Origin: Massilia sp. Leaf139 | GTDB lineage: Bacteria; Pseudomonadota; Gammaproteobacteria; Burkholderiales; Burkholderiaceae_D | Assembly: GCF_001424165.1 (NCBI RefSeq) | Contig: NZ_LMOJ01000001.1 | Coordinates: forward strand, 523,194-587,193 | Direction of reading: 5' to 3' | DNA: 64,000 nucleotides | In this document: piece by piece, positions 1,158 through 12,226 of the stretch | Layout of the letters: the number at the start of each line of letters is the position of its first letter | How positions within the stretch are numbered: the first letter of the stretch is position 1 | The notes under the pieces: model-generated | What the model saw: only the letters and a program-made list of their open reading frames with translations | The model's database searches: none | Told to the model about the DNA's origin: nothing | Translations under genes and position numbers: made by a program

Positions 1158-3707
1158 ATGAACAGCACCTGCGCGCGATGGAGCGACCGTTACCTGGGCG
1201 CGAACCACTGGTTCATCCCCGCCGACCTGTTGGATCAGGCCGCGAACGCCCGTACCCGCGCCGAAAACGTCGTCAATGCGGCCCTGCTCGCGGCCACCGC
1301 CGGCCCTTTCTATGCGCTCGCCTACCACCTGATGGGCTTCGATGCGGCCGCCGTCGAGATCCTGCTGTGCTGCGCCTGCATGCTGGCCTCGCCGCTGCTG
1401 CTGCGCGCCAGCGGCAGCATCTGGGCCGCGCGCGAACTCTTCCTGTGCGCGCTGTTCTTCAACTTCACCTGGCTCAGCTTCAACCTGGGCGGCATCGGCG
1501 CGCCCACCGCGAGCTGGCTGATCACGGCGCCCCTGGTCGCCATGTTCCTCGGCGGGGTAGCCAGCGCCCTGTTCTGGCTCGCGCTCAGCTGCACCGCCGC
1601 CGTCGTCATCTATGCGCTGCCCGGCGCCGGCTATCCGCTCCCGGCGCATCCGGTGGCCGACATGGCGCTGCTGTACCTGGTGTGCCACCTCGGCCTGTTC
1701 GTGGTGGTGCTGGTGTTCGCGCTGCTGTTCGAACTGACCAAGAACCGCGGTTTCGTGAAGCTGGAGCAGGCGCTGGGTACCATCAACGAGCTGGCGATCC
1801 GCGACGAGCTGACGGGCGTGCATAACCGGCGCTACCTGATGCGCCTGATCGAAAAGGAAAAGGAGCGCAGCGACCGCAACGGCCGCGCCTTCTGTCTCTG
1901 CCTGCTCGACATCGATTTCTTCAAACGGATCAACGACACCTGGGGTCATAGCGCCGGCGACACCGTGCTGCGCGCCTTTGCCGGCACCGTGCAGGGCATG
2001 GTGCGCGGCAGCGACAGCTTCGGGCGCTACGGCGGCGAGGAATTCCTCCTGATGCTGCCGGAAACGAGCGCGGACGACGCGATGGTGCTGGCCGGCCGCG
2101 TGCGCGCCGCCGTCGAAAAAATGCGCTGCATGGAGGGTGGCAGCGAGATCGCGCTGACGGTGTCGATCGGCGTGGCCGAGTACCGCATGGGCGAGGCGGT
2201 CGGCCTGGCGGTCGGACGCGCCGACGAGGCCCTGTACCTGGCCAAGTCGAGCGGGCGCAACCGGGTGGTCTGCCACGGCCAGGACGAGGAACCGCTGGCG
2301 CTGGCGCTGCGCGCGAATGCGCCGGCCACCGTCGAACTGAAAGACCTGGGCGTGAGCGTCGGCCGGATGCTCGACGGCGTGCACTGCGACCAGCTCACGG
2401 GCCTGCTCAACCGCCGCCTGCTGCGCGACCGCCTGCGCCACGCCATGGATCGCGCCGACCGCAACCGCCGTCCGGTGGCGCTGCTGCTCCTGAATATCAA
2501 CAAGTTCAAGGAAGTGAACGACGCCCTCGGCTACGAAGCGGGGGACGCGCTGCTGGTGCAGGCCGGCGCCATCATCCGCCAGTGCCTGCGCGACTCCGAC
2601 ACGGTGGCGCGCTGGAGCGGCGACGAATTCGTCGCGCTGCTGGAAGACCTGGCCGCCGAAGGCGATTCGCGCCAGGTGGCGGAGAAGATCCTCGACCGCT
2701 TCGGGCTCCCTCTGAACGCCGGCGAGCGTGAATGCTTCGTCACGCTGTCGGTGGGCGTGGCCCTGTATCCGGCCGAGGAGTGCGACCTCGATGCGCTGCT
2801 CAAGCGCGCCGACATCGCCATGCGCAGCGCGCGCGCCTGGGGCGAGAACAGCGTACAGGTGTATTCGAGCGCCGGATGGTCAAAATTAGGCGAACCGAAG
2901 AGCGAGCGCCTGACGCTCAAGAACGGCCTGCGCGAAGCCCTCGCGCGCGGCCAGCTCTTCCTCGAATACCAGCCCCAGGTCGATCTCGGCACGCGCCGCA
3001 TCGTCGGCGTCGAGGCGCTGGTGCGCTGGCAGCATCCGCTCTACGGCCGCATCGATCCGGGCCGCTTCATCCCGCTGGCCGAGGAGACCGGCATGATCGT
3101 GCCGATCGGCGACTGGGTGCTGCGCACCGCCTGCGCCCAGAACCGCGCCTGGCGCGATGCCGGCCTGCCCGGCGTGAAGACGGCCGTGAACCTGTCGGCG
3201 CGCCAGCTGCGCCATCCCGGCATCGCCGCGCGCGTAATGGAAATCGTCCAGGGCGCGGCATTGCCGCGCGCCTGCCTCGATCTCGAAATCACCGAAGGCG
3301 TGCTGATCGAGGATCTCGCTGCAAATCGCGAGGTGCTAGGCGCGCTGCGCGCCGCCGGCGTGCTGGTCTCGATCGACGATTTCGGCACCGGCTATTCGAG
3401 CCTGAACTACCTCTCCGAGCTGCCCGTCGACATCCTCAAAATGGATGGCCTGTTCGTGCGCCGCCTGGGCGGCAGCGCGCGCGCCCGGCCGTATGCGATC
3501 GCCGAAGCGATCGTCGCGATGGCGCACCGGCTCGAGCTGAAGGTGATCGCCGAATGCGTCGAGACGGGCGAGCAGCTGGGCGACCTGGGCGCCATGTGCT
3601 GCGACGAAGCCCAGGGTTACCTGTTCCACCGTCCGCTGCCCGCCGAGCAGGTCGGCGTGCTGCTGGCGCGCCAGGCCGCGCAGCAGGCGAGCATGGTGCC
3701 AGCCTGA
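1158..3707 (+). CDS. Membrane GGDEF-GGDEF-EAL cyclic-di-GMP enzyme
   Basis: An 849-residue signalling protein. Roughly residues 35-205 hold about six hydrophobic segments (an integral-membrane sensor I cannot name). A canonical GGDEF domain follows (GGEEF near residue 291, with RGSD five residues before it as a possible inhibitory site). A second, degenerate GGDEF domain has SGDEF near 487, and a C-terminal EAL domain has EALVRW near 618. The EAL domain keeps EITEG, the double Asp of IDDFGTGYSS, the ILKMD lysine and a VETGEQ element, so phosphodiesterase activity is plausible beside cyclase activity of the first GGDEF. The ATG at 1158 has AAGGA upstream. The stop is 41 bp before the oxoamine synthase gene, which suggests co-transcription. 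The net direction of c-di-GMP change cannot be told. Confidence 0.92.
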   Translation: MNSTCARWSDRYLGANHWFIPADLLDQAANARTRAENVVNAALLAATAGPFYALAYHLMGFDAAAVEILLCCACMLASPLLLRASGSIWAARELFLCALFFNFTWLSFNLGGIGAPTASWLITAPLVAMFLGGVASALFWLALSCTAAVVIYALPGAGYPLPAHPVADMALLYLVCHLGLFVVVLVFALLFELTKNRGFVKLEQALGTINELAIRDELTGVHNRRYLMRLIEKEKERSDRNGRAFCLCLLDIDFFKRINDTWGHSAGDTVLRAFAGTVQGMVRGSDSFGRYGGEEFLLMLPETSADDAMVLAGRVRAAVEKMRCMEGGSEIALTVSIGVAEYRMGEAVGLAVGRADEALYLAKSSGRNRVVCHGQDEEPLALALRANAPATVELKDLGVSVGRMLDGVHCDQLTGLLNRRLLRDRLRHAMDRADRNRRPVALLLLNINKFKEVNDALGYEAGDALLVQAGAIIRQCLRDSDTVARWSGDEFVALLEDLAAEGDSRQVAEKILDRFGLPLNAGERECFVTLSVGVALYPAEECDLDALLKRADIAMRSARAWGENSVQVYSSAGWSKLGEPKSERLTLKNGLREALARGQLFLEYQPQVDLGTRRIVGVEALVRWQHPLYGRIDPGRFIPLAEETGMIVPIGDWVLRTACAQNRAWRDAGLPGVKTAVNLSARQLRHPGIAARVMEIVQGAALPRACLDLEITEGVLIEDLAANREVLGALRAAGVLVSIDDFGTGYSSLNYLSELPVDILKMDGLFVRRLGGSARARPYAIAEAIVAMAHRLELKVIAECVETGEQLGDLGAMCCDEAQGYLFHRPLPAEQVGVLLARQAAQQASMVPA

Positions 3708-3748: not shown

Positions 3749-5131
3749 GTGCACGAGGAAACGATCGTCTTCGAGCGGGCCGCCGACATCGCCGAACTGG
3801 AAGTTAGCGGCGCGCTGCGCGGCAGCGTCGCCCAGTTCGCGCAGCCGCGCGGCGCCAACCTGTTGCGCCGTACCGAGGCGCTCGACGCCTGGTGCCGGCT
3901 GCGCACCACGCATGGCGTCTGGCAGTACGCGCGCGCCATCGACGGCGCGCCGACGCCGGAGTCGAGCGTGCACGAGGAGGGCGAACTGCCGGGCACCGGC
4001 ACCCGCGGCATCAATTTCGCGTCCCAGGACTACCTGTCGCTGGCCTCGCACCCGACCGTGCGCGAAGCGGCCCAGGCGGCCCTGGTCGAGGCCGGCCCGC
4101 ACAGCGCCGGCTCAGCGGTACTGCTCGGGAACAGCCGCCTGTCGCTGCGCCTGGAAGAGGCGCTCGGCACGCTGCTGCAGATGGAACACGTGACCCTGTT
4201 CCCCACCGGCTGGGGCGCCGCCTTCGGCGTCATCACGGCGCTGGTCGGGGCGCGCGACTACGTGCTGGTCGACCAGCTCGCGCATGCCTCGCTGCGCCAG
4301 GGTGCGAACGCCGCCACCCGCAACGTGGCGCTGCATCGCCATCTTGACACCGGCCACGTGCGTGAACTGCTGGCCGCGATTCGCGCGCGCGATACCGAGA
4401 ACGGCATCCTGGTCGTCACCGAAGGCCTGTTCAGCATGGACGCGGATTGCCCGGATCTGCCGCTGATGCAGCACCTGTGCCGCGAGTACAACGCCACCCT
4501 GCTGGTCGACGTGGCGCACGACCTGGGCGCGCTCGGGCCGGGCGGCACCGGCAGCCTGGGCCAGCAGGCCATGCTGGGCAAGGTCGACCTGGTGATGGGC
4601 GCCTTCTCGAAAACCTTCGCCTCGAACGGCGGCTTCGTCGCCTGCGCCTCGCGCGCGGTGAAGCGCCAGCTGCAGCTGTTCGCCGGCCCGCACCTGTTCT
4701 CGAATGCGCTCTCGCCGGTGCAGGCGGCCTGCGTGCTCGAATCGCTGCGCATCGTCGCCAGCGGCGAGGGCGACGCCCTGCGCGAGGCGCTGCTGCGCAA
4801 TGCCGTGGCGCTGCGCGCCAACCTGGCCGAAACCGGCATGCGCTGCCTGGGCGTGCCATCGGCCATCGTGCCGCTCTGGATCGGCAGCGAGCAGGTGGCG
4901 CGCCTGGCGGGGCGCACGCTGGCGCGCGAGGGCGTCTTCGTCAACGCGGTCGAGTATCCGGGCGTGCCGCTCGGGGCGGCGCGCCTGCGCCTGCAGGTGA
5001 TGGCGGCGCACCGGCCGGCGCAGCTGCGGCAGGGAGCACGGATGATCGGCGCGGCGGTCAGCGGGGCCGGCGCGGCGCTCGGCGTCGAACCGGCGCGCCA
5101 GCCCAGCCCGAGGGAGCGCGCCCGTGGCTGA
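3749..5131 (+). CDS. Alpha-oxoamine synthase-family PLP enzyme
   Basis: A 460-residue fold-type I PLP enzyme of the family containing KBL, BioF, ALA synthase, serine palmitoyltransferase and CqsA. These condense an amino acid with an acyl thioester, with loss of CO2, to give an alpha-aminoketone. Family marks are the SQDYLSLASHP entry, DVAHDLG (Asp254, His257, cofactor contacts) and GAFSKTFASNGG with the predicted Schiff-base Lys288. About 95 residues precede the conserved core. The GTG at 3749 was chosen because GCGAGGAG lies 6-14 bp upstream and no better start exists in frame. The gene overlaps the next by 8 bp, and that protein carries its own acyl-carrier domain, so the acyl donor is probably ACP-bound. 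The amino-acid partner is unknown. Confidence 0.88.
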   Translation: MHEETIVFERAADIAELEVSGALRGSVAQFAQPRGANLLRRTEALDAWCRLRTTHGVWQYARAIDGAPTPESSVHEEGELPGTGTRGINFASQDYLSLASHPTVREAAQAALVEAGPHSAGSAVLLGNSRLSLRLEEALGTLLQMEHVTLFPTGWGAAFGVITALVGARDYVLVDQLAHASLRQGANAATRNVALHRHLDTGHVRELLAAIRARDTENGILVVTEGLFSMDADCPDLPLMQHLCREYNATLLVDVAHDLGALGPGGTGSLGQQAMLGKVDLVMGAFSKTFASNGGFVACASRAVKRQLQLFAGPHLFSNALSPVQAACVLESLRIVASGEGDALREALLRNAVALRANLAETGMRCLGVPSAIVPLWIGSEQVARLAGRTLAREGVFVNAVEYPGVPLGAARLRLQVMAAHRPAQLRQGARMIGAAVSGAGAALGVEPARQPSPRERARG

Positions 5132-8100
5132 CGCTTCCGACCCCGCGAACATGCCCCTTGTCCAGCAGCTGCGCGAACGCGCGCGGCGCACGCCGGGCCG
5201 CATCGCCTATACCTTCCTGCGCGAGAACGGCAGCGAACACGACATCTGCTATGCCGAGCTGGCCGCGCGCGTCGACGCCCTGGCGGCGCAGATGCTGGCG
5301 CAGCTGCGTCCGGGCGCGCGCGCCTTGCTGCTGTATCCGGCGGGGATCGACTTCATCGTCGCCTTTTTCGCCTGTCTGGCGGCCAGCGTGGTCGCTGTGC
5401 CGGCGGCGCCGGCCAACCGCGCGCGCGATAGCGCCCGCCTGGCGGCGCTGACCGGCGACGCCGCCCCGGCGCTGGTGCTGTGCGCGCCCGAGACGCAGGC
5501 CGCAACCGCCGCGGCGCTGGCGCACGTGGGCTGCACGGCGCCCATGCTGTGCGGCGCAGGCGCTGCCGCGGCGGCCGTCCTGCCCGCGCCATCCGGTACG
5601 TCGGTCGCCTTTCTCCAATATACCTCCGGCTCGACCGGCCAGCCGAAAGGCGTCGAAGTCACGCATGCGAACATCGCCGCCAACGTGGCGGCGATCGGCA
5701 GCGCCTTCGGCTTCGGGGTCGACACGGTCATGGTCAGCTGGCTGCCGCCCTTCCACGACATGGGCCTGATCGGCAGCATCGCCGCGCCGCTGGCGCACGG
5801 CTTCCGCTCGGTGCTGATGGCGCCCGGGGCCTTCCTGCGCCGCCCGGCGGCCTGGCTGGAAGCGATTATGCGCTACCGCGCCACCTGCAGCGGCGGGCCG
5901 AACTTCGCCTGGGATTTGTGCCTGCGGCGCGTCAGCGACGCGCAAAAGGCGGGGCTGGACTTGTCGAGCCTGGACGTGTTCTACAACGGCGCCGAGCCGG
6001 TGCGCGCGCAGACGCTGGCGCGCTTCATCGAGAGCTTCGGCCCCTGCGGGCTGCGGCCGCAGGCGGTCTTCCCCTGCTACGGCATGGCCGAGGCGACGCT
6101 GCTGGTGGCGGGCGGGCCGCGCGGCCGCGCGCCGCGCATCCTCCATCTGGACGGCGCGGCGCTCGAGCAGGGCGCCGTGTGCGAGGCGGCATCAAGCCAG
6201 GGCCGCGCCCTGGTCAGCTGCGGCCCGGCGGCGCCCGGCGTCGAGGTGGCCGTGATCGACCCGGCGCGCTGCATTCCGGCCGCCCCGGGCGTGATCGGCG
6301 AGCTCTGGATCGCGGGAGCCGGTGTCGCGCGCGGCTACCATGGCCGCGCCCAGGACAGTGCCCGGCTGTTCGGCCTGCGCGTGGCGGATGCGCCCGCGGC
6401 GCTGCTTGGAGCGCGCTGGCTGCGCAGCGGCGACCTCGGCTTCGTGCGCGACGGCGAAATCTATATTGCCGGCCGCCGCAAGGACGTCATCGTCATCAAT
6501 GGGCGCAAGATCCACGCCCGCGACGTGGAAGCGCTGGCGGAGGACGCCTGCCCCGAACTGGCGCCCAACAGCTGCGCCGCCTTTGCGCTGGAGGGAGAGG
6601 GCAGCGAGTGCATGGCGCTGGTGGTCGAGGCGCCGCGGGCGCTGGCGCGCGGCGGCGACATCGACGCGGTGGCGCGCCGCATCCGCGCGGCGGTCGTGCT
6701 GGGCACGGGCATGCCGCTGCACACGCTCGCCTTTGTCGCACCGGGCGTGTTCCCGCGCACGACCAGCGGCAAGGTGCAGCGCGCGCGCTGCCGGGAGGCC
6801 TTGCAGCGGGGCAGCCTGCCGCTGCTGGCCATGCGCTCGCCCGGCATCGGGGACGGCGGCGCGCGCGCGGACGCCGTCATCGCCTGGCTGCGCAGCTATG
6901 CGCAGCGCCGGCTCGATTCGCGCCTGGCCGACGAGCGCCGTTCGCTCGCGCCCCACGTGCTGCTCGATTTCGGCGCCCGCGGCCTGCTTGGCCTGCAGGC
7001 GCCGCAGGGCAGCGGCGGCCTGGCCCTGGCAACGGGCGACCTGGTACGCGTGATGGCGCAGCTGGCCGCGATCGACCTGACCCTGGCCACCATGGTGGGC
7101 GTGCACAACGGCCTGGGCTTGCGGCCACTGCTGCGCTTCGCGCCTGAGCAGCTGCGCGCGCAGTGGCTGCTCCAGCTGGCCTCGGGCCGCCAGCTGGCCG
7201 CCTTTGCACTGAGCGAGCCGCAGGCCGGATCGAATCCGCGCGCGATCGGCACCCGCGCCGACCGTGTCAAGGGCGGCTGGCGCATCAATGGCGAGAAGCA
7301 CCTGATCGGCCTGGTGGCCTGGGCCGGCGTGCTGACCGTGTTCGCGCGCGCCTTCGATGCCGGCGGAAAGGCGCTCGGCACCGTGGCCTTGCTGGTGCCG
7401 AGCGAGACGCCGGGCCTGGTGCTGGGGCCGGAAGCGCTGACGATGGGCATGCGCGCCATGCCGCAAAGCGCGGTGCGTTTCGACGCCGTCTTCGTGCCCG
7501 ATGCCCAGGTGCTGGGCAAACCGGGCGCCGGGATGGACGTGGCCCAGGACGCGATGGGCTTCGCGCGCCTCGGCATCGGCGCCCTGTGCGTGGGGGCGAT
7601 GAAGCGCTGCGCCCAGCTGATGGCGCGCTACAGCGCGCGCCGCGACGTCGCCGGCGGGCGCCTGCTCGACAACCCGGTGACCCTCCTGCGCCTGCACGAA
7701 CTCGATTGCGCCATCAAGGCCGCTGAATCCCTGGTCGACGCGCTGGCAACCTGCATGGACGAGCAGGGGCCACTGCCGCTGGACGCCTTCAGCGCCTGCA
7801 AGTGCGTACTGTCGGAACTGCTGTGGGAAGCGGCCGACCACCTGATGCAGATGCTGGGCGGACGCGGCTACCTCGAGACCAACCTTGCGCCGCAACTGCT
7901 GCGCGACGCGCGCGTGCTGCGCATCCTGGAAGGCCCGAGCGAAGCCCTGTATGTCCACCTGGGCGCGGTGGTGCGCGTGCCGGGCAATCCGATCGCGAAA
8001 ACGGTCGCGCGCCTGGGCGCCTTCGATTACCTGGCGCTGCTGGCGAACCTGCCGGCGCAGGGCCTTGGCGTCTGGCAGGACGGACGCAACGGCGAATTCG

Positions 8101-8849
8101 CCGCCTGGACGCTGCTGGCCGCCGCCGCACGGGGCGAAGCCGCAGCCTGGGCGGCGCGGCGCCTGGATGCGCTGCGCCGGGAGGTGGAAGCCGAGGGCGC
8201 GGCCGTCGACGACTGCCCGTCGGGCAGCGCCTTGCTGGCACGGGTGGCGCAGCATGCGCTGGCAATCGGCGACATCGAGCAGAGCGCGCCGGGCGAGGCC
8301 GGCGGGCTCGATGCGCTGCTGCGCCAGGCGCTGCCGGAGGCGCCACCCGCACCGGCCGCCCCGGCCCCGTTGGCCGCGCCGCCCGCGCTGCTGACGCCTG
8401 CTGCATCCGTGGCGCCGGCGGCAGCGGCGGCGCTGTCGAGCCTGGAGCTGGTGCACGCCTGCCTGCAGCGCTGGCTGCGCGAAGGCGGTACGGGCGAGGG
8501 TGCGCCAGGGATCGAGGGCTGGAACGTCGACACGCCCTTCAGCGACATCGGCATCGATTCGCTGGCCTCGGTGCCGTTGGCGCTGGAACTCGAGCAGGCC
8601 AGCGGGGTGCCGGTCACCGCCGAGCTGCTCTACGATTATCCGACGGTGCGCTTGCTGGCCGGGTATATAGACGAACAGCACGACGAACTGCGCGATGCAC
8701 AGTGCAATGAGCCGCGCGACCGGCAGCGCGATCCACGGCACGATGCGGATCGTGACGCGCAGGCTGACGTGGCGGACGACGCACAGGACGGCGCCACGTG
8801 TGCGCAAGCAGAGGAGGGGATCGCCGCCGCATCGGGCGCATCGGGGTAG
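5124..8849 (+). CDS. Fatty-acyl-AMP ligase / acyl-CoA dehydrogenase / ACP fusion
   Basis: A 1241-residue three-part enzyme. Residues ~1-575 are an adenylate-forming ligase: YTSGSTGQPKGV near 165, YGMAEATLLV, then GRRKDVIVINGRKIHARDVE, a pattern closer to fatty-acyl-AMP ligases than to CoA ligases. Residues ~590-955 are an acyl-CoA dehydrogenase domain with FALSEPQAGSNP and LEGPSEALY, where the catalytic glutamate is expected. Residues ~1105-1175 are an acyl carrier domain with GIDSL, Ser1146 being the phosphopantetheine site. A charged tail rich in Asp, Arg and His follows. The order suggests activation of a fatty acid, loading on the carrier, and alpha,beta-desaturation in cis. The GTG at 5124 overlaps the upstream oxoamine synthase. 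The product is not predictable beyond an unsaturated acyl chain. Confidence 0.88.
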   Translation: MADASDPANMPLVQQLRERARRTPGRIAYTFLRENGSEHDICYAELAARVDALAAQMLAQLRPGARALLLYPAGIDFIVAFFACLAASVVAVPAAPANRARDSARLAALTGDAAPALVLCAPETQAATAAALAHVGCTAPMLCGAGAAAAAVLPAPSGTSVAFLQYTSGSTGQPKGVEVTHANIAANVAAIGSAFGFGVDTVMVSWLPPFHDMGLIGSIAAPLAHGFRSVLMAPGAFLRRPAAWLEAIMRYRATCSGGPNFAWDLCLRRVSDAQKAGLDLSSLDVFYNGAEPVRAQTLARFIESFGPCGLRPQAVFPCYGMAEATLLVAGGPRGRAPRILHLDGAALEQGAVCEAASSQGRALVSCGPAAPGVEVAVIDPARCIPAAPGVIGELWIAGAGVARGYHGRAQDSARLFGLRVADAPAALLGARWLRSGDLGFVRDGEIYIAGRRKDVIVINGRKIHARDVEALAEDACPELAPNSCAAFALEGEGSECMALVVEAPRALARGGDIDAVARRIRAAVVLGTGMPLHTLAFVAPGVFPRTTSGKVQRARCREALQRGSLPLLAMRSPGIGDGGARADAVIAWLRSYAQRRLDSRLADERRSLAPHVLLDFGARGLLGLQAPQGSGGLALATGDLVRVMAQLAAIDLTLATMVGVHNGLGLRPLLRFAPEQLRAQWLLQLASGRQLAAFALSEPQAGSNPRAIGTRADRVKGGWRINGEKHLIGLVAWAGVLTVFARAFDAGGKALGTVALLVPSETPGLVLGPEALTMGMRAMPQSAVRFDAVFVPDAQVLGKPGAGMDVAQDAMGFARLGIGALCVGAMKRCAQLMARYSARRDVAGGRLLDNPVTLLRLHELDCAIKAAESLVDALATCMDEQGPLPLDAFSACKCVLSELLWEAADHLMQMLGGRGYLETNLAPQLLRDARVLRILEGPSEALYVHLGAVVRVPGNPIAKTVARLGAFDYLALLANLPAQGLGVWQDGRNGEFAAWTLLAAAARGEAAAWAARRLDALRREVEAEGAAVDDCPSGSALLARVAQHALAIGDIEQSAPGEAGGLDALLRQALPEAPPAPAAPAPLAAPPALLTPAASVAPAAAAALSSLELVHACLQRWLREGGTGEGAPGIEGWNVDTPFSDIGIDSLASVPLALELEQASGVPVTAELLYDYPTVRLLAGYIDEQHDELRDAQCNEPRDRQRDPRHDADRDAQADVADDAQDGATCAQAEEGIAAASGASG

Positions 8850-8879
8850 AATAGCCGCTTTATCATTACGCTTTTCGCC

Positions 8880-10283
8880 ATGACCGTCCGCACCCCTGTT
8901 CGTACCCGGTTCGCCCCCAGCCCGACCGGCTATCTCCACCTCGGCGGCGCCCGCACCGCGCTGTATTCCTGGGCCTACGCCCGCCATTTCGGCGGGACGT
9001 TCATCCTGCGCATCGAGGACACCGACCTCGAGCGCTCGACGCCGGAAGCGGTGCAGGCGATCCTGGACGGCATGCAGTGGCTGGGCCTCGCGCACGACGA
9101 AGGCCCGTTCTACCAGATGCAGCGCATGGATCGCTACCGCGAAGTCGTCAAGGGCATGCTGGAAGCCGGTACCGCCTACCTGTGCTACTGCTCGCCGGAA
9201 GAAGTCGAAGCCATGCGCGAGCGCATGCGCGCAGCCGGCGAGAAACCGCGCTACGACGGCACCTGGCGTCCCGAGCCGGGCAAGACCTTGCCCGCCGTGC
9301 CGGAAGGCGTGAAGCCGGTGGTGCGCTTCAAGAATCCGCTGGACGGCGAAGTAACCTGGAACGACGTCGTCAAAGGCCCGATCACGATCGCCAACAAGGA
9401 GCTCGACGACCTGATCATCGCGCGTCCGGACGGCACGCCGACCTATAACTTCTGCGTCTCGGTCGACGACTGGGACATGCGGATCACCCACGTGCTGCGC
9501 GGCGACGACCACGTCAACAACACCCCGCGCCAGATCAACATCCTGCGCGCCCTGGGTGCCGAGCTGCCGGAATACGGCCACCTGCCGATGATCCTGGGCC
9601 CGGATGGCCAGAAGCTGTCCAAGCGCCACGGCGCCGTCAGCGTGATGCAGTATCCGGAGCAGGGCTATCTGCCGGAAGCCATGCTGAACTACCTGGCGCG
9701 CCTGGGCTGGAGCCATGGCGACGACGAAATCTTCACGATGGAACAGTTCACCGAGTGGTTCAACCTCGAGCACCTGACCGCCTCGGCGGCCCAGTTCAAT
9801 CCGGAAAAGCTGGCCTGGCTGAACAACCATTACATCAAGGCGGCCGACAACGAACGCCTGGCCGCGCTGGTGCGTCCGAAAATGGACAGCCAGGGCGCGC
9901 AGTTCGAAGGCGCTCCCGCCTTGCCGGGCGTGCTGGCGCTGGTGAAGGATCGCACCAACACCATCAACGAGCTGGCCGACGCGGCCATGCTGTTCTACCG
10001 CCAGCCGCAGCCGGACGCGGCCCTGCTGAGCCAGCACCTGACCGATACGGTGCGTCCTGCGCTGGCCGCGTTCGCCGAGCGCTGTCAGACGGTCGAATGG
10101 AACAAGGCCGCGCTGGCCGCCATGCTCAAGGAAGTACTGGCAGCGCACGGGCTCAAGATGCCGCAGATCGCCATGCCGCTGCGTTTGCTGGTCACCGGCC
10201 AGCTGCAGACGCCGGCCATCGACGCAGTGCTGGAACTGTTCGGCCGTGAGACCGTGTTGGCCCGTGTAGGGAAGGGACTGTAA
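8880..10283 (+). CDS. gltX: Glutamyl-tRNA synthetase
   Basis: A 467-residue class I aminoacyl-tRNA synthetase that charges tRNA-Glu. The HIGH-type element is [11 protein letters not shown] (His20), and the KMSKS-type loop is KLSKR (residues 245-249). The length is normal for bacterial GluRS of the discriminating or non-discriminating type, which sequence reading alone does not settle. The ATG lies 30 bp after the preceding TAG. That TAG is itself part of a TAGAAT hexamer (8847-8852), but I see no matching -35. Three tRNA-Glu genes and two tRNA-Ala(GGC) genes follow directly. A gltX/tRNA-Ala(GGC) neighbourhood also occurs in Escherichia coli. Confidence 0.97.
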
Positions 10284-10347
10284 TTCGGACGTAATGCGGG
10301 CTTGTCGTTCGCGACTGCAATCCGTTTGATCTTCTTCAAAACGGTAT

Positions 10348-10376
10348 TTGCGTAATGCAAGAACCCCCGCTATAAT
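10348..10376 (+). promoter_or_regulatory. Sigma-70 promoter of the tRNA array
   Basis: TTGCGT (10348-10353), a 17-bp spacer, and a perfect TATAAT (10371-10376). The predicted start near 10383 leaves a leader of about 13 nt before the first tRNA-Ala. Confidence 0.75.
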
Positions 10377-10395
10377 GCTCGCACTTCAGCAGTAC

Positions 10396-10471
<76 letters not shown>

Positions 10472-10500
10472 AGTTGAAGTGTTGTAATCGGTAGTTCAGG

Positions 10501-10576
10501 GTCCCCATCGTCTAGAGGCCTAGGACATCACCCTTTCACGGTGAGTACCGGGGTTCGAATCCCCGTGGGGACGCCA
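10501..10576 (+). tRNA. tRNA-Glu (anticodon TTC), copy 1
   Basis: The acceptor GTCCCCA pairs with TGGGGAC, the anticodon loop CTTTCAC gives TTC, and the CCA is encoded. The body is identical to the other two Glu copies. It lies 29 nt after the first tRNA-Ala. Confidence 0.97.
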
Positions 10577-10640
10577 AGATGCCGGCAGAGGTTTGCCGGA
10601 CGCTGCGCCAGCGGCAGCGGTAGTAGAAGCAGTGGCAATA

Positions 10641-10649
10641 TGGTATGAT
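10641..10649 (+). promoter_or_regulatory. Internal extended -10 before the second Ala-Glu unit
   Basis: TGG followed by TATGAT (10644-10649), 15 bp before the second tRNA-Ala. No clear -35 is seen. This fits a second promoter carried along when the Ala-Glu unit was duplicated. Confidence 0.4.
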
Positions 10650-10664
10650 GTTGTTTTACCCGTG

Positions 10665-10740
<76 letters not shown>

Positions 10741-10792
10741 CGTTGAAGAATACGCAGTAAATCGCGTAGCAGGCAGTATCGGTAGTTCCAGG

Positions 10793-10868
10793 GTCCCCAT
10801 CGTCTAGAGGCCTAGGACATCACCCTTTCACGGTGAGTACCGGGGTTCGAATCCCCGTGGGGACGCCA
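10793..10868 (+). tRNA. tRNA-Glu (anticodon TTC), copy 2
   Basis: Identical in sequence to the copy at 10501. The anticodon loop is CTTTCAC and the CCA is encoded. Confidence 0.97.
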
Positions 10869-10912
10869 AGAATTTGGCAGCAGTAGTACATTAGCAGTCG
10901 GAACAGTTTTAG

Positions 10913-10988
10913 GTCCCCATCGTCTAGAGGCCTAGGACATCACCCTTTCACGGTGAGTACCGGGGTTCGAATCCCCGTGGGGACGCCA
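10913..10988 (+). tRNA. tRNA-Glu (anticodon TTC), copy 3
   Basis: Identical tRNA body. The 44-nt spacer before it differs from the other spacers, so this copy arose by a separate event from the Ala-Glu unit duplication. It is followed within 12 bp by a terminator. Confidence 0.97.
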
Positions 10989-11000
10989 GTCAAAGCAAAA

Positions 11001-11030
11001 AAAGCCGCTGAAAAGCGGCTTTTTGCTTTT
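11001..11030 (+). terminator. Rho-independent terminator of the tRNA array
   Basis: AAAGCCGCT (11001-11009), loop GAAA, AGCGGCTTT (11014-11022), then a T-rich run. The stem can be extended by the flanking A- and T-rich tracts. Confidence 0.9.
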
Positions 11031-11059
11031 CCACTTTGTTTTTCTCGACCATCCCGCCT

Positions 11060-12226
11060 ATGTCCACTTCCCCCAGCGCCTGTTCCACGCCATCGCTGGC
11101 GATCTTCTGCAAGGTCATCGACAACTACGGCGACATCGGCATCTGCTGGCGCCTCGCGCGTCAGTTGCACATCGAGCATGGGGTTGCGGTCACGCTCTGG
11201 GTCGACGACCTGGTCAGCTTCCGCCGGATCTGCCCCGAAGTCGATCCGGCAGCGTCCATTCAGCAGGTGGCGGGCGTCGCGGTGCGCCACTGGCGCGGCC
11301 AGGACGACGACTACACCCCGGACGAGGTCGCCGACATCGTCATCGAATTTTTCGCCTGCGACATTCCGCCCCGGTATATCGAGGCGATGGCCGCGCGCAC
11401 GCCCAAGCCCGTGTGGCTGAACCTGGAAGGCTTGACGGCGGAGGAGTGGGTCGAAGGCTGCCATGCCTTGCCGTCCATGCATCCGCGCCTGAAGCTGACC
11501 AAACATTTCTTCTTCCCCGGCTTTACTGAAAAAACCGGCGGGCTGCTGCGCGAAGCCGGCCTCGAGCGCGAACGGCGCGCCTTCCTGGCCGATCCGCAAG
11601 GGACGCGCACTTTCCTGCGCGCCCTCGGCCTGACGGACGGCGAACTCGATGCCCTGAAAGTGTCGCTGTTTTGCTATCCACATGCCCCGGTCGCCGAATT
11701 GTTCGCGGCCTGGCAGGGCGGGGCCAGCAAGGTCGCCTGCCTTGTGCCGGAAGGGGTCGCATCGGAAGCGGTCGCAGCCTTCCTGGGAACGGGAGCGCGC
11801 GCAGGCGCCGTTGCCACCCGCGGCGCGCTGACCGTGCGCGTACTGCCGTTCGTGCCCCAGCCCCACTACGACCGCCTGCTGTGGGCCTGCGACCTGAATT
11901 TCGTGCGCGGCGAGGATTCCTGGGTGCGTGCCCAGTGGGCCGGCAAGCCTTTCGTCTGGCACATTTATCCGCAAGACGAGAACCTGCACCACAAGAAATT
12001 ACGCGCTTTCCTGGCACGCTATGCGCCCGAGATCGCCAGCCTGCAGGCGCTGATGCTGGAATGGAACGGAGCGGGCACGGGCCCAGCCGACTGGCCTGCC
12101 TTATGGGCGGCACTGCTGGCCGATCAGGCGCAGATCGAGCGCCGTTCCGAGGAATGGCAGGACGCAATGTCGCGCAATGGCGACCTGGCATCCAACCTGC
12201 TGCGCTTTGCTGCTTCACTTCGTTAG
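11060..12226 (+). CDS. earP: EF-P arginine rhamnosyltransferase EarP
   Basis: A 388-residue glycosyltransferase that moves rhamnose from dTDP-rhamnose onto Arg32 of elongation factor P, which activates EF-P to relieve ribosome stalling at polyproline. Family motifs are DNYGDIG near the N-terminus (Asp21 and Asp25 in this numbering) and GEDSWVRAQWAGKPFVWHIYPQ in the C-terminal lobe, with the conserved Glu. The efp gene follows 68 bp downstream and encodes Arg at position 32, the substrate expected for EarP. The ATG at 11060 is preferred over an upstream TTG at 11036 that falls just past the tRNA terminator. Confidence 0.95.
   Translation: MSTSPSACSTPSLAIFCKVIDNYGDIGICWRLARQLHIEHGVAVTLWVDDLVSFRRICPEVDPAASIQQVAGVAVRHWRGQDDDYTPDEVADIVIEFFACDIPPRYIEAMAARTPKPVWLNLEGLTAEEWVEGCHALPSMHPRLKLTKHFFFPGFTEKTGGLLREAGLERERRAFLADPQGTRTFLRALGLTDGELDALKVSLFCYPHAPVAELFAAWQGGASKVACLVPEGVASEAVAAFLGTGARAGAVATRGALTVRVLPFVPQPHYDRLLWACDLNFVRGEDSWVRAQWAGKPFVWHIYPQDENLHHKKLRAFLARYAPEIASLQALMLEWNGAGTGPADWPALWAALLADQAQIERRSEEWQDAMSRNGDLASNLLRFAASLR

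Follow-up and report, generated by a model that had tools for sequence, protein, structure and literature searches.

A putative oxoamine synthase-receptor signalling module with an accessory acyl supplier in Massilia sp. Leaf139

The 64,000-nucleotide stretch of Massilia sp. Leaf139 DNA analysed here (contig NZ_LMOJ01000001.1, positions 523,194 to 587,193 of the forward strand; the whole stretch is called the window) carries an alpha-oxoamine synthase (OAS) gene between the gene of a membrane-bound GGDEF-GGDEF-EAL protein and that of a large fusion of a probable fatty acyl-AMP ligase (FAAL), an acyl dehydrogenase and an acyl carrier protein (ACP). Comparison of these sequences makes it rather likely that the genes form a CqsA/CqsS-like module, in which a lipid aminoketone made by the OAS would be read by a six-helix receptor controlling cyclic di-GMP (c-di-GMP). 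The OAS and the sensor are taken as the core of the unit and the fusion as an accessory acyl supplier, because the receptor gene accompanies the OAS in 11/11 survey genomes and the fusion in only 6/11. An earlier note on this DNA missed the upstream gene (1158-3707), which is one of the three genes of the unit, and placed its interest on the fusion, the dispensable part.

All three genes are on the forward strand. The putative receptor gene (1158-3707) encodes 849 amino acids; the OAS gene (3749-5131; GTG start, 460 amino acids) lies 41 bp 3' of it, and the fusion gene (5124-8849; GTG start, 1241 amino acids) overlaps the OAS gene by 8 bp. The description in the earlier note of a GTG-started pyridoxal 5'-phosphate (PLP) enzyme overlapping by 8 bp a three-part protein of 1241 residues is confirmed by the gene calls and Pfam. 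A purine-rich stretch, judged by eye, precedes the GTG start of the OAS; a sigma-70 scan, uninformative in itself, found no promoter at the locus.

The association of the OAS with the receptor is evident from a survey of 195 genomes of the family. An OAS of at least 60% identity occurs in 11/195 genomes (next best 38%) and the three-domain fusion in 6/195, six of the OAS genomes carrying the fusion and five lacking it. In each of these 11 OAS genomes the receptor gene immediately precedes the OAS gene, with an interrupted frame in L151, and an OAS without the receptor gene was found in 0/11. The membrane domain of the receptor is present in 22/195 genomes; a close copy (47% identity or more) occurs in 13, including all 11 OAS genomes. 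Co-occurrence of the close domain with the OAS over the 195 genomes gives a Fisher p of 2.7e-16, and a p of 2.1e-11 is obtained with all 22 domain-positive genomes counted and the window's own genome left out. Receptor and OAS stand in the Mrp-GltX interval, as in the window, and without the fusion there, in L149-L153, while L154 has a lone receptor in this interval; beyond it, the unit stays together in several genomic contexts. Distinct Oxalobacteraceae OAS loci number 23 (the window, the 14 named fusion loci and 8 more from the family survey), and each has the receptor gene upstream of the OAS and in the same orientation; in all 14 fusion loci this holds also where the outer neighbours differ. 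A CqsA-type synthase above the cut-off was found in 0/11 OAS genomes and 44/184 others (Fisher p 0.055), an absence that is only suggestive.

The receptor displays two GGDEF domains and an EAL domain behind an N-terminal membrane domain, as assigned by Pfam. The AlphaFold2 model of residues 1-212 (about 1158-1793) has a pLDDT of 86.6 and shows six long membrane-type helices, counted by eye, ahead of the output domains. This membrane domain has no Pfam match at E 0.1, MASE6 and MASE11 included, and Foldseek gave no match at E 0.001 or better. A related single-domain protein from L045 scores 17.7 bits with both MASE6 and MASE11, below their Pfam gathering scores of 27.3 and 27.4, respectively. 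The first GGDEF domain carries a GGEEF motif and, by eye, an RxxD site; the second (about 2382-2849) carries SGDEF and is followed by the EAL domain (about 2928-3635). The first GGDEF, EAL and DDFG motifs are present in the window receptor and in 22/23 other receptor genes at OAS loci, whereas the second GGDEF is variable; these intact motifs suggest that the membrane sensor probably both makes and breaks c-di-GMP. In OAS-linked receptors (n=23) the mean identity to the window is 67% for the membrane domain and 72% for the first GGDEF, against 41% and 55% in relatives unlinked to an OAS (n=10), which is suggestive only of a membrane domain conserved when linked to the OAS.

The OAS is a single PLP-domain protein by Pfam and NCBIfam (Aminotran_1_2, 1.1e-40). 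Members of its superfamily share a PLP lysine, a ring-stacking histidine and an Asp-x-x-His motif, and the corresponding H179, D254, H257 and K288 (codon 4610-4612) are invariant in 23/23 aligned homologues; the fold-type I domain and these residues place the protein in the alpha-oxoamine synthase superfamily. The catalytic assignments of the earlier note, Lys288 here and Ser1146 in the fusion, are both upheld. The closest solved-structure relatives are KBL, serine palmitoyltransferase (SPT) and AONS, yet the OAS falls below the cut-offs of the NCBIfam models for bioF (281.7 vs 426.45 bits), glycine C-acetyltransferase (234.4 vs 460) and SPT (221 vs 640). Assignment to the CqsA family was rejected, on a score of 163.3 bits vs a cut-off of 428 (NF005526) and a separate clade. 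In the OAS tree, 38 rows of the window-type clade, one of them (L211) with a single stop entered as X, stand apart from 3 JqsA and 11 other OASs with a support of 100/99. The OASs lacking a fusion nest among the fusion-bearing ones, which suggests that the fusion was lost in some lineages. Pairwise dN/dS values of 0.15-0.28 (10 pairs) indicate that the OASs of strains without the fusion are under purifying selection.

The fusion consists of an AMP-binding part (about 5157-6824; Pfam AMP-binding, residues 16-406), a dehydrogenase part (about 6876-7949; Acyl-CoA_dh N/M/C, residues 585-942), a segment without a Pfam match and an ACP part (about 8523-8669; PP-binding, residues 1134-1182; Ser1146 at codon 8559-8561). 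For the AMP-binding part the top NCBIfam model is a non-ribosomal peptide synthetase/polyketide synthase model and 5 of the 6 top models are fatty acyl-AMP ligases, all below cut-off; the best solved chains are 7r7e ('Polyketide synthase') and 3kxw ('Saframycin Mx1 synthetase B'), followed by the ligases FadD23 and FadD32. Adenylation motifs are retained in 15/15 aligned fusions, except for a changed P-loop lysine in L045, and Ser1146 is conserved in 15/15. Equivalog models matched by the dehydrogenase, both below cut-off, include RedW and PigA; action of RedW on a carrier-bound substrate is stated by the model name, and PigA also acts on a carrier-bound substrate. A dehydrogenase often takes part in FAAL/ACP lipopeptide starters. 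FAAL and ACP are described as starting lipid attachment in lipopeptide antibiotics in part of PMC9113097; there they feed a non-ribosomal peptide synthetase, whereas in the window one fused protein would deliver to the OAS.

A non-exhaustive scan for the fusion (one genome per species, exact query peptides, the best 80 of 172 candidates) gave 79 loci, 14 of which (L033-L045, L047; Massilia, Noviherbaspirillum and one Janthinobacterium metagenome-assembled genome) hold the three domains in one frame. An OAS of 60-90% identity lies directly upstream in 14/14; these loci were found through the fusion and are uninformative on OASs without one. The three-domain fusion is not a chance product, because 14 one-frame homologues exist and 14/14 have the OAS directly upstream. 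The presence of the OAS beside the fusion, proposed as a check in the earlier note, held for all 14 close fusions, and the fusion was found neither in a known pathway of different chemistry nor commonly without the PLP enzyme. In 12/79 loci, planctomycetes by title, the gene after that of a FAAL encodes a different OAS, with 29-34% identity; the four of these 12 OASs that were placed in the tree all fall outside the window-type clade. FAAL-dehydrogenase genes of lower identity, without an OAS in the fetched stretch, occur in L046, L048 and L051. Massilia horti ONC3 carries two complete units on different contigs (L042, L044). In L045 the fusion (7368-11306) lacks the GGRGY and catalytic-loop consensus of the dehydrogenase and has the changed P-loop lysine of the FAAL, which suggests decay of the fusion in this metagenome-assembled genome. 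Since the dehydrogenase motifs are eroded in L045 and the domain is absent wherever the fusion is, the sequences suggest that desaturation is not always needed and is not essential to the unit.

The association extends beyond the family. Relatives of the OAS, 44-52% identical to that of the window, were collected from 398 genomes of the phylum (8 OAS matches at E 1e-65, including the window genome and G018), from plasmids (617 records matched, of which the five best, belonging to three organisms, were taken and three records were opened) and from the order to which G575 belongs (249 genomes), which is another order of the phylum and, from its likeness to Pseudorhodobacter, presumably an alphaproteobacterial one. 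The searches of the 249-genome order gave five genomes with the membrane domain (E 1e-20) and eight with the OAS (E 1e-80). Each of the five belongs to the eight; the Fisher p for this overlap is 7.3e-9, rising to 2.3e-7 when the centre G575 is dropped and to 4.1e-6 when G575, G644 and G617, whose content was known beforehand, are all dropped. In four of these five, the genes of OAS and membrane domain are no more than about 1.5 kb apart (L206, L238, L239, L240), and adjacency of OAS and membrane domain was found in 5/7 cases (L197, L206, L238, L239 and L240; not G575 and G691). Massilia-type and kinase-type membrane domains, the alignment of one side having only 4 rows, match in hhalign with a probability of 98% (E 1.9e-13), whereas reversed and shuffled controls do not exceed 4.8%; the two sets are homologous by this comparison.

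The output attached to the domain varies. In L197, from a Pseudorhodobacter plasmid, the genes after that of the OAS encode a histidine kinase, whose membrane domain is comparable, and a response regulator. Two membrane-domain kinases and a receiver-GGDEF-EAL protein stand near the OAS in L206; in L238 and L239 the OAS is flanked by a PAS-GGDEF-EAL protein and by a hybrid kinase that bears the membrane domain. In L240 the neighbour is one protein combining membrane domain and GGDEF-EAL, as in Massilia. Pfam places GGDEF-EAL on the response regulator beside the kinases in L206, L241 and L242.

From the domains and conserved residues, the following chemistry is inferred. The FAAL would activate a free fatty acid and load it on the fused ACP, the dehydrogenase would render the tethered chain 2,3-unsaturated, and the OAS would condense the chain with an amino acid, with loss of CO2, to a long-chain unsaturated alpha-aminoketone. 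The chemistry given in the earlier note (loading by the FAAL, desaturation and release by the OAS) fits these domains, except that desaturation is not essential: in strains without the fusion an ordinary acyl thioester would reach the OAS and give a saturated variant. The product, being hydrophobic, would then reach the six-helix domain of the protein encoded next to the OAS, whether in the producing cell or in a different one, and shift the balance of diguanylate cyclase and phosphodiesterase, so that c-di-GMP, and with it attachment versus motility, would track the amount of signal. A receptor function of the membrane domain is proposed from adjacency, co-occurrence, the two output types and conservation when linked to the OAS; the c-di-GMP output of the window receptor is putative, its motifs being intact. 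The broader proposal, about evenly balanced between acceptance and doubt, is that of a new lipid quorum-sensing family of Alpha- and Betaproteobacteria parallel to CqsA/CqsS, in which an OAS of its own clade would make a long-chain aminoketone, a six-helix family other than CqsS would read it, and nearly every version would end in c-di-GMP, through a GGDEF-EAL fusion or a kinase with a GGDEF-EAL partner; the Massilia fusion would make an unsaturated dialect, lost in some lineages.

The unit resembles CqsA/CqsS, LqsA/LqsS and JqsA/JqsS in that a PLP oxoamine synthase gene adjoins the gene of a multi-helix membrane sensor. CqsA, LqsA and JqsA are OASs, and a passage of PMC3566124 places the synthase gene beside that of a sensor kinase in all organisms having one. 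In contrast to these synthases, the window OAS scores below the NCBIfam cut-off and belongs to another clade; its receptor has GGDEF-EAL output in one polypeptide where CqsS, LqsS and JqsS are kinases; and a dedicated FAAL-dehydrogenase-ACP supplier is present. According to part of PMC4821796, the six-helix domain of CqsS, itself the receptor of a signal made by an OAS, drives a cyclase fused to it in response to CAI-1, and PMC12505454 reports the six-helix domain of that adenylyl cyclase as a fatty-acid receptor. The likeness of the window receptor to the adenylyl cyclases Rv1625c/Cya lies in such lipid or autoinducer receptor use and in a weak fold match to 7yzk, the closest in Foldseek, which is not significant (E 0.094, TM 0.52); the output enzyme differs. 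With RpfF/RpfR the unit would share the direct reading of a fatty signal by an enzyme of c-di-GMP metabolism, RpfR being described in part of PMC8846402 as a GGDEF-EAL protein under direct control of its fatty signal. RpfR senses through a PAS domain, whereas the window receptor has a six-helix membrane domain, and the synthase is RpfF in the one and an OAS in the other. In the literature searched, with most subscription papers outside its scope, neither a description of the OAS-receptor-fusion unit nor a paper joining FAAL, oxoamine synthase and acyl-CoA dehydrogenase was found.

Several observations weigh against a signal synthase-receptor module. The 23 Oxalobacteraceae loci share ancestry and are not 23 independent events, and the adjacency counts and Fisher tests are non-independent for the same reason. 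Nine of the 22 domain-positive family genomes have a distant copy, none closer than 37% identity, and no window-type OAS, the six of these loci that were opened all having GGDEF, and close copies without the OAS occur in G091, G098 and the paralogues L148 and L156. In the conservation comparison the linked and unlinked sets differ in kinship; the unlinked L148 and L154 behave as linked, and the membrane domain of the linked L041 and L153 lags by more than 10 points. A CqsS-type receptor was rejected by sequence, the hhalign probability against JqsA-adjoining kinases being 0.1% (E 0.7; 5 of 6 fetched loci aligned, Vibrio CqsS itself left out); the model of a JqsA-linked kinase domain (pLDDT 56.4) is too poor for fold comparison. 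Farther afield, the OAS of G575 and G691 is unlinked to the kinase pair with its receiver-GGDEF-EAL protein, and the Pseudorhodobacter stretch has kinase and receiver without a GGDEF-EAL match in Pfam. No membrane domain was found in the OAS-clade members G711, G588 and G617 (search at E 1e-8) or G1009 and G872 (E 1e-20). Of domain-less clade members, L209 has its OAS beside an ACP, and L211 and L244 have nothing clear alongside. Such members in other company indicate that not every OAS of the clade need be a signal synthase. In the window, neither an exporter nor an amine-to-alcohol step adjoins the unit.

The lack of an adjoining exporter would also suit an explanation by lipid homeostasis instead of cell-cell signalling: the OAS would make an internal lipid (a lipid cue or a membrane component resembling a sphingoid base), which the six-helix protein would monitor within its own cell. 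FAALs can recycle free fatty acids, SPTs rank with the nearest relatives of the OAS both in solved structures and in NCBIfam, and six-helix domains are reported as fatty-acid sensors (part of PMC12505454). Against this, the SPT models fall far below their cut-offs, the patchy presence of the OAS (11/195 family genomes) is odd for a bulk lipid, and no ceramide-type genes were recognised beside the loci by eye, no dedicated search having been made; the explanation is considered unlikely. It is quite improbable that the OAS and fusion make a pigment, an antimicrobial or a lipid-base natural product with which the GGDEF-EAL regulator merely travels along. Related OASs do stand in apparent natural-product clusters: with an ACP, a ketosynthase and an AMP-binding/NAD_binding_4 reductase in L195, with an MMPL transporter and a large protein of FAAL, ACP and OAS parts in L210, and with an FtsX/ABC exporter in L243. 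In Massilia, however, the most constant partner is the receptor (11/11) and not the biosynthetic fusion (6/11), and the same membrane domain recurs on kinases beside the OAS. A signal is the best supported of the three products (signal, lipid base or pigment) that the earlier note had left open.

The version preferred in that note, a self-contained two-gene pathway to an unsaturated aminoketone without a signalling partner, is now very improbable. The 8 bp overlap in the window and the adjoining genes in 14/14 named loci speak for it, but the OAS outlives the fusion: it is kept without it in 5/11 survey genomes, under purifying selection, and in none (0/11) without the receptor gene.

If the synthase-receptor module is real, it would give c-di-GMP networks a further extracellular signal that is sensed directly; PMC8846402 counts two such signals with direct evidence. 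It would further provide a candidate signalling system for the Massilia strains studied here that have no CqsA-type synthase, a test bed for lipid sensing by six-helix domains, and a case of one receptor family placed on kinases and on cyclase/phosphodiesterases beside one kind of synthase.

The unit is flanked in the window by two forward-strand chromosomal neighbours that lie outside it, a Mrp/ApbC-like P-loop NTPase gene (2-724; PF10609, which we take to be Mrp) and a glutamyl-tRNA synthetase-like gene, GltX (8880-10283; tRNA-synt_1c). The same Mrp/ApbC-like neighbour recurs in L149-L153, beside the unit, and in L154, beside the lone receptor.

Further proteins related to the receptor were observed. 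A membrane-domain-only protein of about 190-215 amino acids, possibly a decoy, co-receptor or signal carrier, is encoded just downstream of the fusion in 9/11 loci outside the Mrp-GltX context (L037, L038, L043, L044, L045, L047, L143, L144 and L145, e.g. L047:13778-14347; not L040 and L041). L145 (G070:C1:2849000-2868000) carries, one after the other, the genes of receptor, OAS, fusion and membrane-domain-only protein, followed by another complete receptor gene. A further receptor-like protein (L148, G000:C24:361000-380000), with a 53% identical membrane domain and possibly a second receptor, is encoded in the window's own genome; its gene adjoins another GGDEF-EAL gene and has no OAS match in the stretch. 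Only L045 has a FadL/TodX-family outer-membrane transporter gene between receptor and OAS (4549-5868), through which a hydrophobic signal might be taken up.

Among OASs of the same clade, the Streptomyces clavuligerus plasmid pCLA1 carries a candidate aminoketone natural-product cluster (L195:12714-19332), and in L210 (851-11317) the OAS adjoins a frame of 1937 amino acids that combines FAAL and ACP with a further OAS part, the MMPL-family transporter coming next. Two OASs from a single subclade each follow the gene of a LuxR-like regulator 376-378 amino acids long (L196:16783-19278, L243:6546-9191; GerE above cut-off in L196 and below it in L243), perhaps a third kind of OAS partner; FtsX and ABC transporter genes follow the OAS in L243. 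In two genomes of one genus an RND-pump gene, a possible exporter, is directly upstream of the OAS (L207:5183-8287, by ACR_tran; L208:5713-8814, by likeness).

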